IMG/VR virus record: IMGVR_UViG_3300027140_000023
Location: 1 to 24,319 of that record
Length of the DNA stretch: 24,319 nucleotides
Strand: one strand, 5' to 3'
Origin: a virus
Shown here: piece after piece, positions 3,483-24,319 of the stretch
Position numbering within the stretch: the stretch's first letter is position 1
How the letters are laid out: each line of letters begins with the position of its first letter
Translations under genes and position numbers: made by a program
The notes under the pieces: generated by a model
Seen by the model: the letters and a program-made list of their open reading frames with translations, nothing else
Database searches by the model: none
What the model was told of the DNA's origin: nothing

Positions 3483-5657
3483 ATGACAACTAGAAAATAC
3501 TCATCCCGTTCGCAGCAAACTACTCTTACTGCTGGAATCAACTCAACCGCTACTTCGGCTACAGTCGTATCTGGAAGCGGACTTCTTGGTGGTATCACCA
3601 TTTCTGCTGGAGAAACATTTACTGTAGTAATTGACCCAGATACAGCCCTTGAAGAAATTGTAGATGTTACCGCGGTTAGCACTAACACGCTAACCATAGT
3701 TCGTGCTATTGATACAAGTCCAGCAACTGGTCAGGCTCACTCTGCTGGTGCAGTAGTTCGCCACATGGCAATTGGTCGTGACTATCGCGAAGCCAATTCA
3801 CATATTGAAAATGTAACCACAGCACACGGGCTAACCATTGCTAATGTTTTGGAAACAACAGATACAAATATAATTACTAGTGCAATGATTGTAGACGGCG
3901 CTATTGTTAATGCTGACATTAATGCTAGTGCTGCTATTGCAGATACTAAATTGGCTACAATTTCAACTGCTAGTAAGGTATCTAATAGTGCTACTACTGC
4001 TACATCTGCTAATACTGCTAGTGCAATTGTGGCTCGTGATGCATCAGGTAATTTTACAGCAGGAACAATTACAGCAAATGTAACTGGTAACGTAAGTGGA
4101 ACCTCAGGTTCTACAACAGGTAATGCTGCTACAGCCACAGCCCTTGCTACTGGTCGTACATTCCAGTTGACTGGAGATGTAGAAGCAAGCGGAGTTACCT
4201 TTGATGGTACTGGCAATGTAAGCCTAACCACAGTTATTGGTACTGGAGCAATTGTTAACGCTGATATTAACTCAGCAGCAGCAATTGACAAGACAAAGAT
4301 TTCAGGCACAGCCATTACCGCTGGAGATACAGGCACTGTAACTAGCACAATGATTGCTAACGATACAATCGTCAACGCAGATATTAACTCCGCTGCAGCA
4401 ATTGCATATAGCAAGTTAAACCTTGCAGGTTCAATTACTTCAGCAGATATCACTAATGACACAATTGTTAACGCAGATATTAATACTGCTGCAGGTATTG
4501 CTTACAGCAAGTTATCACTTGGTGGAACTATTACCTCTGCTGACTTGGTAGACGGAACTATCGTCAACTCAGACATTAACGCATCTGCTGGTATTGCACT
4601 AAGCAAGTTAGCAACAGACCCACTAGCCCGTGCTAACCACACTGGCACACAGACAGCAAGTACTGTATCAGACTTTGATACACAGGTTCGTACCTCTAAG
4701 GTAACTGACCTTGCAGCACCTACTGGTTCATTCTCAATGAATAGCCAAAAGATTGTTTCTCTTGGAACACCTACAGCAAATGCTGATGCAGCAACTAAAC
4801 TTTATGTAGATACTAAAGTCTCAGACTTGGTTAACTCAGCCCCTGGAACACTAGATACTCTTGGCGAAATTGCAACAGCAATTCAAGCAGGCGGTACAGT
4901 CTTTGATGCTATGGTACTCAAGGCTGGTTCTACAATGACTGGTGCTTTGGTTCTAAATGCTGACCCATCAGTTAATCTTGGTGCTGCTACTAAGCAGTAT
5001 GTAGATACAGTTGCAGGTTCTGCTACCGCTGCTGCAGCAAGTGCTGCTGCTGCTGCCACAACTTATGACAACTTTGATGACCGTTACTTAGGTGCTAAAG
5101 CAACTCCACCAAGTTTAGATAATGATGGCAATGCTCTTATTACTGGTGCTATCTACTGGGACACTGCTGCTAATGCTATGTATGCCTGGTCAGGTTCTGC
5201 CTGGGCTTCTATATCATCTACTGCAGCAATTTATCGTTATCGTTATACAGCAACTGGCGGAGAAACTACAAAGTCTGGTTCCGATGATAATGGCTTAACT
5301 CTTAATTATCTGGTTGGCAAGGAACAAGTATATCTAAATGGTATCTTGCTTGTTCGCACATCAGATTATACTGCTACATCTGGCTCAAGTATTACATCTC
5401 TTGCAGCATTAACTGCTGGAGATATTCTTGAGATTATTACTTTTACCGCATTTGATTTGGCTACAGCAATTCAACAATCAATTTTCACTGCTAAGGGAGA
5501 TATCCTAGCAGCAACATCTTCTGGAGTTGCTGGAAAAATAGCAGTAGGAACTGATGGATATTACTTATCCTCAGATAGCACGACAGCAACTGGCCTAAAA
5601 TGGACAGCAGTAGTAACAGACCCTAATCCAAGTATCTTTATGCTGATGGGAGCGTAA
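3483..5657 (+). CDS. Large repeat-rich tail fibre protein
   Basis: A 724-residue Thr/Ala/Ser/Asn-rich protein typical of trimeric phage fibres. The first ~110 residues look like an attachment domain ('MAIGRDYREANSHIENVTTA'). Five 'IVNADINxxAAI' type repeats follow, then 'AATKLYVDTKVSDLVNSAPG' with 'LDTLGEIATAI', a segment widespread in tail fibres, and a second 'GAATKQYVDT' copy before an Ala-rich coiled region and a C-terminal 'FTAKGDILAATSSGVAGK' module. That last module recurs in two downstream genes. The ATG follows GGAAG. It should mediate host contact; receptor unknown. Confidence 0.85.
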   Translation: MTTRKYSSRSQQTTLTAGINSTATSATVVSGSGLLGGITISAGETFTVVIDPDTALEEIVDVTAVSTNTLTIVRAIDTSPATGQAHSAGAVVRHMAIGRDYREANSHIENVTTAHGLTIANVLETTDTNIITSAMIVDGAIVNADINASAAIADTKLATISTASKVSNSATTATSANTASAIVARDASGNFTAGTITANVTGNVSGTSGSTTGNAATATALATGRTFQLTGDVEASGVTFDGTGNVSLTTVIGTGAIVNADINSAAAIDKTKISGTAITAGDTGTVTSTMIANDTIVNADINSAAAIAYSKLNLAGSITSADITNDTIVNADINTAAGIAYSKLSLGGTITSADLVDGTIVNSDINASAGIALSKLATDPLARANHTGTQTASTVSDFDTQVRTSKVTDLAAPTGSFSMNSQKIVSLGTPTANADAATKLYVDTKVSDLVNSAPGTLDTLGEIATAIQAGGTVFDAMVLKAGSTMTGALVLNADPSVNLGAATKQYVDTVAGSATAAAASAAAAATTYDNFDDRYLGAKATPPSLDNDGNALITGAIYWDTAANAMYAWSGSAWASISSTAAIYRYRYTATGGETTKSGSDDNGLTLNYLVGKEQVYLNGILLVRTSDYTATSGSSITSLAALTAGDILEIITFTAFDLATAIQQSIFTAKGDILAATSSGVAGKIAVGTDGYYLSSDSTTATGLKWTAVVTDPNPSIFMLMGA
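3903..4605 (+). repeat. Five coding repeats in the tail fibre gene
   Basis: Units encoding 'IVNADIN(S/A/T)(A/S)A(A/G)I' start at 3903, 4251, 4368, 4464 and 4560. The last three are exactly 96 bases (32 codons) apart and each of the later copies is followed by 'A(Y/L)SKL'. The spacing is a multiple of three, so the frame is kept. Identical stretches such as 'gcagatattaa' between copies suggest recent duplication or recombination, which would let the fibre change length. Confidence 0.85.
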
Positions 5658-12635: not shown

Positions 12636-13010
12636 TCATTTACGCATTGTATTTATTATATCTTCAATCTTAATAAGGTAGCCCTTACTAGGATTCGGAG
12701 GTATATTGCAAGTAATGGCTCTTCCCCTAGCCGTTACTACTTGCTTTAGTACTTCCGTTGGCACTATGAAGGTTGCCCCCTCCAGCACAAAAGCCCAGTA
12801 TGCAGCCTTAGTGCTGGACAACCCTGATAGATACCAATTCTCATTGTTGTGTGACCAGCAAACTGTTTCAATATATACATTACCAGTTTCTTTCCATCTT
12901 AAATCTGTCTTGACTTCTACTGTAGCACCACCTGTTAGTAGTTGTTCTACTAACCCTTCTCCTTCTTGTCCTCTTGCTAGGTCTAGGTCAAAGTCTGATA
13001 GTTTGCTCAT
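12636..13010 (-). CDS. Small PD-(D/E)XK nuclease-like protein
   Basis: A 124-residue protein of a type frequent in actinophages. The N-terminus ('FDLDLARGQEGEGLVEQLL') gives an acidic helix, and 'TVEVKTDLRWKETGNVYIE' (residues 30-48) contains the E-x-K signature with nearby acidic residues, the layout of restriction-endonuclease-fold enzymes. No separate Asp is clear in the usual position before the E-x-K, so activity is inferred only. It is the last gene of the leftward operon, coupled to whiB by an ATGA overlap, and its stop touches the late terminator. Confidence 0.72.
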   Translation of the reverse strand: MSKLSDFDLDLARGQEGEGLVEQLLTGGATVEVKTDLRWKETGNVYIETVCWSHNNENWYLSGLSSTKAAYWAFVLEGATFIVPTEVLKQVVTARGRAITCNIPPNPSKGYLIKIEDIINTMRK

Positions 13011-13273
13011 GGGTATCCTAAGTATAGTGGTTCAGGAGTTATGTTTAGTTTTCTTCTTAAAACTTTACGTTCATGTTCTGTTGTTCCGCCCCAGAATCCT
13101 AGTACTCCGTAGTTAAGTGAGTAGTTTAAACATTGCTGTTTAATCTCACAGTTATTGCAGATTCTTTTTAACATTTTAATTTCTTTATAAGTTGCTGAAC
13201 CATCAGGAACAAAAAACTCTTCTGAATCAACACTTCTGCAATTAGGTGTACCTTGCCATTCTGGGTAACTCAC
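13007..13273 (-). CDS. WhiB-family Fe-S transcriptional regulator
   Basis: An 88-residue protein with the complete WhiB signature: cysteines 12, 39, 42 and 48 (C-x2-C-x5-C after an isolated Cys) to bind a 4Fe-4S cluster, then 'GVLGFWGGTTEHERK' and a basic 'RRKLNI' DNA-contact segment. WhiB proteins are restricted to Actinobacteria and their phages and usually act through the host sigma factor. Phage copies are known to interfere with host WhiB2 and superinfection in mycobacteriophage TM4. The start is GTG, four-base overlapped (GTGA) with the stop of an upstream 28-residue gene. Confidence 0.95.
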   Translation of the reverse strand: MSYPEWQGTPNCRSVDSEEFFVPDGSATYKEIKMLKRICNNCEIKQQCLNYSLNYGVLGFWGGTTEHERKVLRRKLNITPEPLYLGYP

Positions 13274-13518: not shown

Positions 13519-13763
13519 TAGATAGAGTCCTCATTCTTTGGGTAAGGGAGTGTGACCATTGACCCACAGTTAACGCACTCTCCATCAAGGAAATAAAAGC
13601 ATAGTTCACCTTGGTCAAATGCAACAAGCGCATGAAATACATCCCCTCCACATATGCAAACATCCCCAATAGATTCTCCTCGCAAATCCATAGCGTGTGA
13701 GTAATCCGTTGGATGTAGTAACTCTCGGATTTCTTTGACATTATCACTCTCCTGATTCGTCAT
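13518..13763 (-). CDS. Zinc-ribbon protein of actinophage type
   Basis: An 81-residue protein with two Cys pairs: 'DVCICGGDVFHALVAFDQGE' (C-x-C) and 'DGECVNCGSMVTLPYP' (C-x2-C), with beta strands between, a zinc-ribbon arrangement. Similar small proteins ('CxCGxxxWxxxV...DxxCxxCG') are common near regulators in actinophages. I use the ATG with a GAGGT site upstream; it overlaps the sigma-like gene by 20 bases. A different frame in the same place has an excellent SD but a non-protein-like product. Function unknown; nucleic-acid or protein binding is likely. Confidence 0.75.
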   Translation of the reverse strand: MTNQESDNVKEIRELLHPTDYSHAMDLRGESIGDVCICGGDVFHALVAFDQGELCFYFLDGECVNCGSMVTLPYPKNEDSI

Positions 13764-14391
13764 CTTCTACCTCTACAGAATTGTCTTCATCTAGGTGTGG
13801 TCTGTACCCACCAAGATTTCTAATTAAAGAACTGATAGCACGCTGCACTTTCATACGTGCACCATCAGGGGTAGTGTTTAACTCTTCACCTAACTTGCTC
13901 CACTCGCAAGATTCTGTACTAAACCTAGTCTTTAAAATAAACTGTTTAGCCTCTGACAATCTGTAGTATGCCGTTGCTATGTCTGAGCGCAGTACTAACC
14001 AGTTATTAGTATCTGTGCTTTCACCTTTAGTGAACTTAAAGTTGAGGTCTTTAATTTTGGTTGGTATTTCATAGGATTCTGAAATAATAGAGGGTAAGAA
14101 CGCTTCAATAACTGAAGCATCATAGTAGTACAAATCAAGTAACTCATAACCAACCGTCCGTGCCTTTTCGCGTTCGCAATAAGTAATTGCTTTGTTGCGA
14201 AGAGACTTGGCTATGAGTTTGTCCTTGTCTTTTTGTGGTAGTGCTGACCACTCTTTGTACTTAACGGGATGACTAACAAACCATATCCACAAGACTTGTT
14301 GTATGTCTTGCTGGTCAGTCATAGGGTATTTGCGCTGGTATTCGGCAGCAATTGCCACAACCATCTGCTCATACTCTTCTAAGTAGTCCAC
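13744..14391 (-). CDS. Sigma-70-like / ECF-like RNA polymerase sigma factor
   Basis: A 215-residue mainly helical protein with GTG start. The N-terminal region ('YEQMVVAIAAEYQRKYPMTD' then 'QQDIQQVLWIWFVSHP') resembles sigma region 2, and the C-terminal segment (about 155-195, 'WSKLGEELNTTPDGARMKVQ', 'RAISSLIRNLGGY') is a helix-turn-helix like region 4. The linker (~95-140) is long and acidic, and the last 15 residues are almost all Asp/Glu/Ser. Phage sigma-like factors redirect host RNA polymerase to late promoters, a natural job here given the divergent early/late arms. Homology is distant. Confidence 0.72.
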   Translation of the reverse strand: MDYLEEYEQMVVAIAAEYQRKYPMTDQQDIQQVLWIWFVSHPVKYKEWSALPQKDKDKLIAKSLRNKAITYCEREKARTVGYELLDLYYYDASVIEAFLPSIISESYEIPTKIKDLNFKFTKGESTDTNNWLVLRSDIATAYYRLSEAKQFILKTRFSTESCEWSKLGEELNTTPDGARMKVQRAISSLIRNLGGYRPHLDEDNSVEVEDDESGE

Positions 14392-18886: not shown

Positions 18887-19834
18887 TTAGATTCCGACTA
18901 GTTCTAGTGCTCGTAGTTTAATGCCATCATTGCGCCCTGCAAGGGTAGCAATACTAGCATCTTTCTGAGAGTAGTGGTCAGCATATTCAACTACTGCTTG
19001 CCATAAACCAAACTCTGTATGACGGATGTTCTCTTGTGTTGGGCTATCTGAATAGATAGCAAATGCTTTCTGCCGTGCATTGAGGGCACGGGACTTGGCA
19101 TTCTTTTCACCCTTGCTGAGTAGGTGTAGAGGTGCGTTCTCAATTTTAGATGGTAGAGCCCACACTTTCTTGAAGTACTCAGTTGCTTTGTTGATGTCTG
19201 CCTCACGCTGTAATAGATGGTTAGCAAGATTACTATACGCATCAATACTTGTGTAAGTCAAGTCAAGGATGTTTCGCATATCGGATACTGATAACACTGA
19301 GTTTTGTGTATGACGCAGTGTGTATGTGTGCGCTTTGTTCTTGGCACGATAGATACGATTGATTTGGTTGGCACACCACAATCGTTCGATGATAGGACGG
19401 ATGACCACTGATGATGAACCATCATGACTAGTCTTGGCTAGTAAGAAGGCTGCGTGTGGGTCGCCCTTGATTTCCATTTCTTTTGGTAGTGACATAAGCA
19501 TCCATACTTTTGCGCCACCATCATACTCACCTGCTGCTGCATAGCGAGCATCACCTGAATCAATTAAGCCGTCAAGGCAGCCAAAGACTTCTTGGTTTTG
19601 GAAGACTTTGTATTTGCTACCTACTACGCCAATGACTGACTCATTTCCATTTGCTTTTTTTACGACTGCTTGCTTGTTCGGTACATGCAAGAAGTCAGAT
19701 GTATGCATATCAGATAAACCAACAGTCCAATTAAGTCCTGCTTGTTCTGCTACCTGTGCTGCACTACTTGCTTCTACTGCTACGCCAGCCTTTTGCCAGG
19801 CTGAGCGGTTCTTCGCTACATTTGCTGTAGTCAT
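18887..19834 (-). CDS. DUF932 phage/plasmid-like protein
   Basis: A 315-residue protein of the DUF932 type. Recognisable blocks are 'AEQAGLNWTVGLSDMHTSDF', 'ESVIGVVGSKYKVFQNQEVF', 'LDGLIDSGDARYAAAGEYDG', 'KVWMLMSLPKEMEIKGD', 'LAKTSHDGSSSVVIRPIIER' and 'LWCANQINR'. Members are common on phages and plasmids, usually in early operons; their function is not established, though a role around recombination or DNA handling has been suggested. Length fits a complete member. An AAAGGG site precedes the ATG. Confidence 0.88.
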   Translation of the reverse strand: MTTANVAKNRSAWQKAGVAVEASSAAQVAEQAGLNWTVGLSDMHTSDFLHVPNKQAVVKKANGNESVIGVVGSKYKVFQNQEVFGCLDGLIDSGDARYAAAGEYDGGAKVWMLMSLPKEMEIKGDPHAAFLLAKTSHDGSSSVVIRPIIERLWCANQINRIYRAKNKAHTYTLRHTQNSVLSVSDMRNILDLTYTSIDAYSNLANHLLQREADINKATEYFKKVWALPSKIENAPLHLLSKGEKNAKSRALNARQKAFAIYSDSPTQENIRHTEFGLWQAVVEYADHYSQKDASIATLAGRNDGIKLRALELVGI

Positions 19835-22390: not shown

Positions 22391-22705
22391 TTATGCTTGT
22401 GATACGGATGTAAGTACTACCTGCTTAAGGCCTGGCTTACGGTCTTTGTTATCAATGTTTGGACGGCGGTCCCAGCGTGTGTTACCGATGCCTTCTGCGT
22501 TGATGTATGCAGTTGAATCTGCGAGCCAGTTAAGTTCTCGTAGTTGTGTAATTACATTCTCATCGAAGATAACTACACGTGTAGAGTCAGAGCAAATTTG
22601 GCGCCCTGTTGGTAGTTGTTCGTAGTCGTTGATGGTTGCTGTGTAGAAACCATTGCGGTCAACAACATTCTTGATAACGCTGTTCTTGAATGTGACTGTG
22701 TTCAT
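22391..22705 (-). CDS. Hypothetical protein, possibly OB-fold ssDNA-binding
   Basis: A 104-residue protein with AAAGGAAAC before the ATG. It is beta-rich: 'MNTVTFKNSVIKNVVDRNGF', 'YTATINDYEQLPTGRQICSD', 'TRVVIFDENVITQLREL' and 'STAYINAEGIGNTRWDRRPN', with a basic segment 'NKDRKPGLKQVVLTSV'. The order of strands and the 'VVIFDENV...AYINAEGIG' pair recall single-strand-binding proteins, but I see no decisive motif. It is followed at once by a strong terminator, so it may be expressed at high level as a two-gene early unit. Confidence 0.72.
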   Translation of the reverse strand: MNTVTFKNSVIKNVVDRNGFYTATINDYEQLPTGRQICSDSTRVVIFDENVITQLRELNWLADSTAYINAEGIGNTRWDRRPNIDNKDRKPGLKQVVLTSVSQA

Positions 22706-22737
22706 TTTGTTTCCTTTTCTGTTGGTAGTGTTGTTGT

Positions 22738-22774
22738 GCAGACCTGCTCCTGCACTTGTTCAGAGCAGGTCTGC
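22738..22774. promoter_or_regulatory. 12-bp perfect inverted repeat between two early genes
   Basis: GCAGACCTGCTC (22738-22749) and GAGCAGGTCTGC (22763-22774) are perfect complements around a 13-base loop. The element fills most of the 78-base gap between the genes starting at 23146 and 22705. No T-run follows on either strand. It could be an operator, a processing site, or a stabilising hairpin that sets the relative expression of the two genes. Confidence 0.6.
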
Positions 22775-22783
22775 TTTGGATTG

Positions 22784-23146
22784 TTAGTTACAACTTGGAC
22801 ATACAGCGTGCTTATTGCATACCATGTGGCAGTCTTGGCACACGGTCTCATGTGGACCTAAGTCCACAACCAGTTCAAAGAACCTGTCGGATAGGTTGGT
22901 GACAGGTTCCATAAACTCGTTTCGTTCCTTTTCGTCGTTGTCAATGGTTACAGCACCTACCCAGTCGTGGCCAGATGGGCTGTCAACCCTATGCATGGGA
23001 CGGTCGTATTGGTCACTGTTTTCGTCTACTAGGTCATGGGCGATGTTGGTCGCCCGTGAATCTCGTAGGTCTTGGCAGTCTACGCATAGTTCCATCTGAA
23101 TCATGCACTGGTAGCATGGGTTGGAGACAGTCAGTTCATCAGACAT
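22784..23146 (-). CDS. Cysteine-rich zinc-binding protein, first gene of the early arm
   Basis: A 120-residue acidic protein with AAGGAAAG before the ATG. Cysteine clusters are at both ends: 'NPCYQCMIQMELCVDCQDLR' (two C-x2-C pairs) and 'HETVCQDCHMVCNKHAVCPS' with a final Cys (two or more C-x2-C pairs). The middle ('HDWVGAVTIDNDEKERNEFM') is polar and acidic. Two zinc knuckles linked by a helical middle is my reading. As the first gene leftward from the long non-coding region, it is probably expressed immediately after infection; host takeover is a reasonable guess. Confidence 0.75.
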   Translation of the reverse strand: MSDELTVSNPCYQCMIQMELCVDCQDLRDSRATNIAHDLVDENSDQYDRPMHRVDSPSGHDWVGAVTIDNDEKERNEFMEPVTNLSDRFFELVVDLGPHETVCQDCHMVCNKHAVCPSCN

Positions 23147-23266
23147 TGTACTTTCCTTTCTTTAACCTGATACACGCGATAACCTCTCGGTTCAGGATTA
23201 CGCCACTTTGAATCATGGCAGTCATCGGATAGCGCATTCTTGCGCTAGACGCGGGGCGTGGCTGGA

Positions 23267-23282
23267 CTGCGAGCCTGCGAGC
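23267..23282. repeat. Tandem direct repeat CTGCGAGC x2
   Basis: The eight-base unit CTGCGAGC occurs twice in direct succession (23267-23274 and 23275-23282), and the second copy forms part of a five-pair hairpin with the following CAGGC. It may be a short iteron-like or structural element. Confidence 0.7.
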
Positions 23283-23364
23283 AGGCGCACATTCATGGGC
23301 GCTCCAGACACGGCGTTGCGGGGATTCCGCAACGAGTAGTCCTGTTGCGCTTATGAGTTAGCCC

Positions 23365-23387
23365 CCTTCCGCCGAATAGGCGGGAGG
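23365..23387 (+). other. Stable hairpin with GNRNA-type pentaloop
   Basis: CCTTCCGCC pairs with GGCGGGAGG around the loop GAATA. One pair is U-G in plus-strand RNA and would be an A-C mismatch in minus-strand RNA, favouring rightward transcription. The loop GAAUA fits the GNRNA pattern of lambdoid boxB antitermination hairpins, although no N-like protein is recognised here. Confidence 0.6.
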
Positions 23388-23663
23388 TGCGGGATAACGA
23401 ATGCAATAGGACTTGACAAACATGATACAAGGCGCGTAGTCCTGAGAGAGAGGATTCTGTTCAGGTCAGGCATTCTGGAGTGAGTACAGCACTGCCAAGT
23501 GTGGCTGCATGGAATGCTGACGCACTGCAGTCGGCTGACGGAACGGGCAGGTGAGGGGTTGCCATTGCCAAGGCTGAAACTATTTTTATTTAGTATGAAA
23601 CAAATAGTTATCTGACTGGGGCGCAGACATCTGGTCAAGCCCGCAGACTGCTAGCCGTAACAG

Positions 23664-23736
23664 GACCCACTGTACAGGACAGTAGAGCGGCAGCATTAAA
23701 CAGTCTGTGGGTCTGAAAGACCCCAGAGTGTTTAAT
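23664..23736 (+). promoter_or_regulatory. Alternative-pairing hairpins (switch-like element)
   Basis: GGGTC at 23709-23713 can pair with GACCC at 23719-23723 (loop TGAAA), extended by CTG/CAG and enclosed by ATTAAACA/TGTTTAAT (23695-23702 and 23729-23736). The same bases, as GTGGGTC (23707-23713), can instead pair with GACCCAC at 23664-23670. The two structures exclude each other, as in attenuators and riboswitch expression platforms. A weak pyrimidine run (tctttct) follows the second hairpin. Confidence 0.5.
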
Positions 23737-23848
23737 AGTCTTTCTAACCTGTAGTAGTATCTGCCATAAAAATATTTCCGTACAACAGTGCCCCTGATAC
23801 AGTCATTATTTAACAGTTTTTGGCAAATAAAAAATATTTTAAAATAAA

Positions 23849-23887
23849 CCGTTCGGAATGGCTGTTTGAACGGGTTAATACTATATA
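23849..23887 (+). promoter_or_regulatory. Candidate promoter/operator before the terminase gene
   Basis: An AT-rich block (23813-23848) leads to the inverted repeat CCGTTC (23849-23854) / GAACGG (23868-23873), followed by TTAATACTATATAG with -10-like hexamers. No good -35 at standard spacing was found. Location upstream of the first late gene makes a regulated late promoter likely, perhaps read with help from the phage sigma-like factor or WhiB. Confidence 0.4.
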
Positions 23888-23903
23888 GAGAGTATTTATT
23901 ATT

Positions 23904-23981
23904 ACAGTAGCAAGTCTCTTAAAGACTTGCGTTACAGACTGTATCTACTGTCTGTTACAACTGACTGTAACTATTGTAGAT
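23904..23981 (+). promoter_or_regulatory. Structured 5' leader of the terminase gene
   Basis: Two stem-loops lie just before the start: GCAAGTCT/AGACTTGC with a five-base loop (23910-23930), then ATCTAC...GTAGAT (23943-23948 with 23976-23981) enclosing GTTACA/TGTAAC (23954-23959 with 23966-23971). ACAGTAG (23904-23910) can alternatively pair with CTACTGT (23945-23951). The structure ends 11 bases before the GTG and could limit ribosome access. Confidence 0.5.
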
Positions 23982-23992
23982 GGGACCATTCT

Positions 23993-24319
23993 GTGACTTT
24001 TCAAAAAGGGTCTAATAACCCTCAAAGTACCGCCCTGGCAGAGGCAAAACGTAAAGTTTTAGCCCTTGTAGCAGAGGGTATGTCGCCTAAAAAGGCGATG
24101 GAGAATCTGGGCAAAAAGCCAGATACCATCCGAATCTGGATGCTTAGGGATAAAGAGTTTGCCGCCGATTTAGAGCAGGCTTTGCAGGATGCAAAGTCCA
24201 ACTCAATCAAGGCGTTGGGCATCGCAAAGGAGGAAATCACCTTTCCTCAGTTTAGCGAGATGTTCCTTGACCAGAGGGTGTTTCCACATCATATGGACTG
24301 GGTGGACTTGCTAGAAGAT
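23993..24319 (+). CDS. terL: Terminase large subunit, N-terminal part (runs off the window)
   Basis: The first 109 residues of a terminase are visible. After a polar start comes 'ALAEAKRKVLALVAEGMSPK', 'KAMENLGKKPDTIRIWMLRD', an HTH-like segment found at the N-terminus of actinophage terminases, then 'PQFSEMFLDQRVFPHHMDWV' and 'DLLED', the conserved lead-in to the ATPase domain. Walker motifs lie beyond the window. I use GTG 23993; there is no clear SD and the frame is open back to 23879 without an ATG. Terminases cut and pump DNA into the capsid. It begins the late arm. Confidence 0.85.
   Translation, partial: MTFQKGSNNPQSTALAEAKRKVLALVAEGMSPKKAMENLGKKPDTIRIWMLRDKEFAADLEQALQDAKSNSIKALGIAKEEITFPQFSEMFLDQRVFPHHMDWVDLLED

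Follow-up and report, generated by a model that had tools for sequence, protein, structure and literature searches.

To our knowledge, large structured RNAs without an assigned function are rare, and those of phages, GOLLD and ROOL, have received structures only recently. GOLLD, which is often found near tRNA islands, forms a homo-oligomeric cage (a 14-mer), while ROOL forms an octameric nanocage. The pRNA of phi29, which is about 174 nt long and essential, is the product of an RNA gene near the genome end of a tailed phage; packaging RNAs of this type are obligate partners of the packaging motor and co-evolve with it. GOLLD, ROOL and OLE are known as large ornate RNAs: GOLLD is a phage-encoded, non-coding, large and highly branched RNA, half conserved and half variable, and ROOL is a large ornate RNA encoded by phages and prophages, with a function established for neither (PMC12286853). 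In the extrachromosomal prophages of the cluster A mycobacteriophages Alma and LadyBird, replication is driven by RNA-based origins, i.e. 400-500-nt regions expressing a non-coding RNA, and the ori regions deleted in the study of these phages spanned 26463-26959 and 25900-26299 (PMC7157519). Here, we describe a hypervariable phage RNA cassette that is supported by covariation and matched to no described family. It is best read as a new class of modular phage non-coding RNA, which would work like GOLLD and ROOL without being a member of either.

The 24.3-kb window, by which we mean the whole stretch of viral DNA analysed here, carries late genes running rightward and a set of leftward genes that includes a primase, a DnaB-like helicase, an exonuclease, a WhiB regulator and a sigma-like factor (Table 1). 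The WhiB-like regulator points to an actinobacterial host, and the phage family, which is metagenomic, probably infects actinobacteria. Between the divergent starts of a Cys-rich ORF, for which no family was found in Pfam or PHROGs, and the terminase ORF lies a gap at 23147-23992, whose limits and non-coding nature the original prediction had given correctly. Its dismissal of any credible ORF also holds: the longest one, a 95-aa frame on the minus strand, was rejected as protein-coding since it has internal stops in one relative (L063), is split over two frames in another (L060) and is missing in the other RNA types. No tRNA or tmRNA was found in the window. The G+C content is 56.5% in 23160-23580, as against about 40-45% in nearby genes, and drops to 39.7% in 23600-23992; the 846 nt are thus two different elements. 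Accordingly, the predicted G+C rise stands for the left half and fails for the right, and the single RNA of about 846 bases that had been envisaged shrinks to one of about 420 nt, roughly half of the region. The left half (~23164-23580) is a structured RNA gene, and the right half (~23600-23992) is an A+T-rich region before the terminase with a probable terminus, one late-promoter-like element and hairpins.

The hairpin density noted in the original prediction is borne out by folding well beyond chance and by covariation in two RNA types. Relative to dinucleotide shuffles, the left half (23160-23580) has fold z-scores of -7.6 on the plus and -5.4 on the minus strand and the right half (23600-23992) of -5.1 and -4.4, while two controls taken at 5000 and 14500 lie between -1.1 and +1.3; the corresponding values for the whole region, -7.3 and -9.5, are inflated by its uneven G+C. 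As a stretch over the neighbouring ORF (22700-23120) also reaches -3.5/-5.2, z-scores alone are no proof of an RNA, and it is covariation that provides it. For the core shared by types A, C and As (see below for the types), helices were drawn up manually from complementary stretches and scored on 18 distinct sequences: pairing holds in 97.8% of cells, and 12 of the 42 pairs show changes on both sides (59 cells), a level attained by none of 500 shuffles, whereas sliding the partners by 1-3 columns reduces pairing to 24-44% with at most two double-change pairs. The structure of type B, obtained with RNAalifold on 16 sequences, comprises 145 pairs, 98.2% paired and 19 with double changes (0/500 shuffles; slid controls 36-41%). 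These counts come from the very sequences from which the structures were derived, and recombination and relatedness among the sequences weaken the shuffle control. Base pairing is conserved in both of these sequence-unrelated types, so that the covariation among homologues anticipated by the original prediction is present in the related loci gathered, and we consider it nearly certain that the left half encodes a structured RNA.

In the window, this RNA is of type A, with a long-range helix (P0) closing a set of branches (Table 1). The sequence of P0 differs between the types while its pairing is kept, although the lower-scoring results of the automatic search for it include chance pairings. 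Among the members, the tandem G-A pairs of P1 are either retained or swapped for A-U pairs, P4 covaries (AT/AT, GC/GC, AC/GT), and both-sided changes are seen in three pairs of P6 and four of P7. Type B has a different 3' domain, which covaries too (type B helices 13 and 14). Across the phage family the RNA is about 400-560 bases long.

Table 1. Features of the window, by position and strand
Feature	Position	Strand	Sequence, basis or remark
WhiB-like regulator	13007-13273	-	
Sigma-factor-like ORF	13744-14391	-	PHROGs phrog_354, E 5e-12
DUF932 protein	18887-19834	-	Pfam PF06067, E 1e-35; in leftward operon
Cys-rich (zinc-ribbon-like) 120-aa ORF	22784-23146	-	first gene of leftward operon; cassette flank
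Structured RNA cassette (type A)	23164-23580	+	limits of homology among phages whose flanks differ; fold z -7.6 on +; covariation
Cassette boundaries	3' at 23562-23574		5' AACCTGATAC; 3' near CCATTGCCAAGGC; homology boundaries, not mapped transcript ends
P0 5' strand, long-range closing helix	23183-23224	+	pairing kept by differing sequences in other types
P0 5' segments	23183-23188; 23193-23204; 23210-23217; 23221-23224	+	CCTCTC; CAGGATTACGCC; GAATCATG; inner GTCA
Hairpin P1 with tandem G-A pairs	23226-23251	+	CGGATAGCGC / GCGCTAGACG; covariation of flanking pairs
Branched arm P2/P3/P4	23257-23312	+	covariation
Hairpin P5	23315-23333	+	GTTGCGG GGATT CCGCAAC; GCGTGG TTTA CCACGC in other members
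Helix P6 around hairpin P7	23338-23413	+	P7 at 23365-23387, loop GAATA
Inner TTGAC and P0 3' strand	23413-23453	+	CATGATAC 23421-23428; GGCGCGTAGTCCTG 23431-23444; GAGAGG 23448-23453
3' hairpin domain of RNA	23456-23580	+	fold of window module
Probable packaging terminus, near 23645	23618-23654	none	GGGGCGCAGAC...CCCGC|AGACTGC; contig starts, placed on window by eye from alignment
Inverted repeat and following motif	23849-23890	+	CCGTTCGG...TTTGAACGG, then TTAATACTATATAGAG; near-invariant across relatives; one copy in window
Stem-conserved hairpin and repeats	23910-23958	+	GCAAGTCT...AGACTTGC, repeats GTTACAGACTGTATCTACTGTCTGTTAC; upstream of terminase; alignment
Terminase ORF start (cut by window end)	23993-24319	+	PHROGs terminase small/large subunit; frame open in relatives, 628-639 aa

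Several features assign the RNA to the plus strand, i.e. towards the terminase. In type B, the pairs predicted on both strands contain G-U in 14 columns and A-C in 5; for the pairs of the core common to both strands the counts are 5 and 1, and within the core built by hand every one-sided change is a G-U on the plus strand, with no A-C. Further, the consensus energy is better on this strand in three alignments, CUUG loops cap eight distinct hairpins on it as against two on the other, and the tandem G-A pairs of P1 are presumably a stable motif on the plus strand only. The plus strand is hence very likely the one that yields the RNA, which agrees with the large structured plus-strand phage RNA originally predicted. 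A search for a plus-strand promoter before the cassette returned none that was convincing. No more than about 17 nt separate the cassette's left edge from the start codon of the leftward gene. The promoter of this gene must therefore be inside the cassette or to its right, and transcription of the cassette's minus strand is probable too.

Searching IMG/VR by protein and by DNA gave loci L002-L276, and about 60 homologous loci were collected. When 46 distinct intergenic regions were first aligned, homology held throughout on the terminase side, while the left side fell into several types; because a first MAFFT alignment across all types had mixed modules that are not homologous, each type was handled separately from then on. 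These are type A (the window, L114, L060 and L242), type C (L065/L102, L074, L238-L240 and L243), type As (L054, L062, L085 and L090), type B (L006, L017, L232, L234-L236 and L270-L276) and further types beyond these. One of the recognised types is present in about half of 112 distinct upstream regions, and in many of the others the same place is taken by another structured element, about 125-570 nt long. The shortest of these are hardly more than hairpins, such as GTCAAGC-AGTCTTTCC-GCTTGAC (L160, L042), and many relatives have such a short version or none, with the large forms missing. Upstream of the terminase in L020, L022, L030, L031, L152, L212 and L229 are structured elements with z-scores down to about -15 and no likeness to types A-C, which probably are more RNA types of this locus.

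The types do not follow the phage backbone. The RNA module of the window is 87.6% identical to that of L242 over 380 nt, while their right sides align over only 60 nt at 78% and their terminase N-termini are about 52% identical. Conversely, the window and L006 are 95.9% identical on the right side, with no detectable similarity between their modules, that of L006 being of type B; this type is present in phages of both terminase lineages. Entire RNA types have thus passed from one phage backbone to another at a fixed locus, the behaviour of a cassette that recombination moves about. The 79356-base record that contains L239 (G006) has two terminase matches 39.5 kb apart, with 50% and 41% identity to that of the window, and may represent two phages or a chimeric assembly. 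Beyond this family, only chance matches to the window's region were found in isolate phages, and none to types B and C, while the bacterial genomes searched held no copies of two type-specific patterns. Fold scores indicated no clear comparable element in the 1.55-kb right-end non-coding region of Streptomyces phage Manuel, which has a related terminase, and a reading of the sequences of two related metagenomic phages (OX376640 and OX376641) found no G+C-rich cassette.

In the right half, the first bases of 13 homologous contigs fall 365-379 nt upstream of the terminase. Several of them, which come from several samples, open with three to eight contig-specific purines, presumably library tails, followed by identical phage sequence, the pattern that a physical DNA end would leave. 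A 127-nt overlap closes four complete relatives of 38-40 kb into circles. In Streptomyces phage Manuel (L277, L278), the first ~270 nt recur at the right end of the record as a terminal repeat, beside the 1.55-kb region without annotated genes, suggesting that the position near 23645 could be either a cos site or the border of a terminal repeat; a genome terminus of one of these kinds is probable here. Among a handful of contig ends on the other side, no cluster was seen. The near-invariant inverted repeat closer to the terminase is a candidate phage-specific late promoter or operator, whose motifs (CCGTTCGG..GAACGG and TTAATACTATATAGAG) are recognisable in OX376640 and OX376641 too; the leftward-encoded sigma-like factor might read it.

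Our best account of these observations is a phage non-coding RNA encoded by the left half on the plus strand, in which P0, with GTCA/TTGAC at its inner end, would close the multi-branched domain P1-P7, with a second hairpin domain after it. This RNA would be transcribed on its own and act in trans during infection, as a folded RNA or an RNA-protein particle, as has been proposed for GOLLD and ROOL. The variable branches of this RNA would face a partner that varies as well, be it a host factor, a defence system or a competing phage, which would explain the diversification and swapping, and recombination in the conserved flanks would move the cassette. We lean towards such an independent transcript acting in trans, the trans part being suggested by the position, dispensability and exchange of the RNA.

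An alternative that takes up the strand preference and the place of the cassette directly upstream of the late operon is a cis-acting leader, in which the RNA would be the 5' part of a transcript that crosses the terminus and extends into the terminase and late genes, and would control this transcript in an antitermination-like or translational manner. We consider this unlikely, as a separate conserved promoter-like element lies just before the terminase, the RNA type is independent of the late genes, and relatives with homologous terminases do without the large forms. The last point, along with the discordance between RNA type and terminase relatedness, makes it highly improbable that the cassette is a packaging element acting at the genome end in the functional manner of phi29 pRNA, despite its place beside the terminase and about 65-480 bp from the probable terminus; were such an element made of DNA, the G-A and G-U features, which indicate RNA, would also speak against it. 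The same features, together with the CUUG loops and consensus energy, favour the plus strand and render rather improbable a minus-strand 5' leader that regulates the first gene of the leftward operon, even though the cassette ends beside that gene's ribosome-binding site with no room between them for a leftward promoter and minus-strand folding, too, exceeds chance.

An RNA-based replication origin, as in the extrachromosomal mycobacteriophage prophages (PMC7157519), would be consistent with the similar size, the probable actinobacterial setting and the hypervariability of the RNA type, as expected of a compatibility determinant. However, a search for ParA-like proteins (PF13614), tyrosine integrases and resolvases gave no match in 12 genomes, complete ones included, and hence no sign of prophage maintenance, and the isolate phages offer no similarity. 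The sign of the GC skew, proposed in the original prediction as a check, does change at the region, but it does so together with gene direction and so does not decide on an origin. We found no evidence favouring the origin that had been offered there as an alternative, and deem an RNA-based one about as improbable as the leftward leader.

Returning to the trans-acting RNA, we tentatively suggest that the locus could represent a very diverse new class of non-coding RNA, with a common closing helix and exchangeable structured domains, which is traded at a single site and possibly counters host defence or excludes rival phages. If so, it would be the RNA counterpart of swappable accessory protein genes. 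The exchange seen at this locus shows that phages can trade RNA modules just as they trade genes. Such a class offers a wealth of natural variants in which covariation is built in, sits at one predictable position of the genome and is of a size suited to probing, and comparisons of phages that differ chiefly in the cassette, such as the window and L006, make its role testable.

Among described systems, the origins of Alma and LadyBird resemble the cassette in region size and in their actinobacteriophage setting, probable in our case; they adjoin parABS, whereas ParA-like proteins were not detected here, and there is no sequence similarity. Like phi29 pRNA, the cassette is an RNA gene close to a (probable) genome end; unlike it, the large forms are dispensable and the RNA type is discordant with terminase relatedness. 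The resemblance to GOLLD and ROOL invoked in the original prediction does not extend to homology at the sensitivities tried: on both strands, the whole region matches no Rfam family, GOLLD, ROOL and HEARO included, at the gathering score or at E up to 10, and another 18 loci gave no match with E up to 5. Together with the covariation, this supports the new class that had been its alternative. With ROOL, the RNA shares the character of a large ornate phage RNA, and differs from it in the lack of a tRNA island and in the many exchangeable types at one locus. It is smaller than GOLLD and has no tRNA beside it; like GOLLD, it is phage-encoded, non-coding, large and highly branched, with a conserved and a variable half, but it varies by swapping whole modules.
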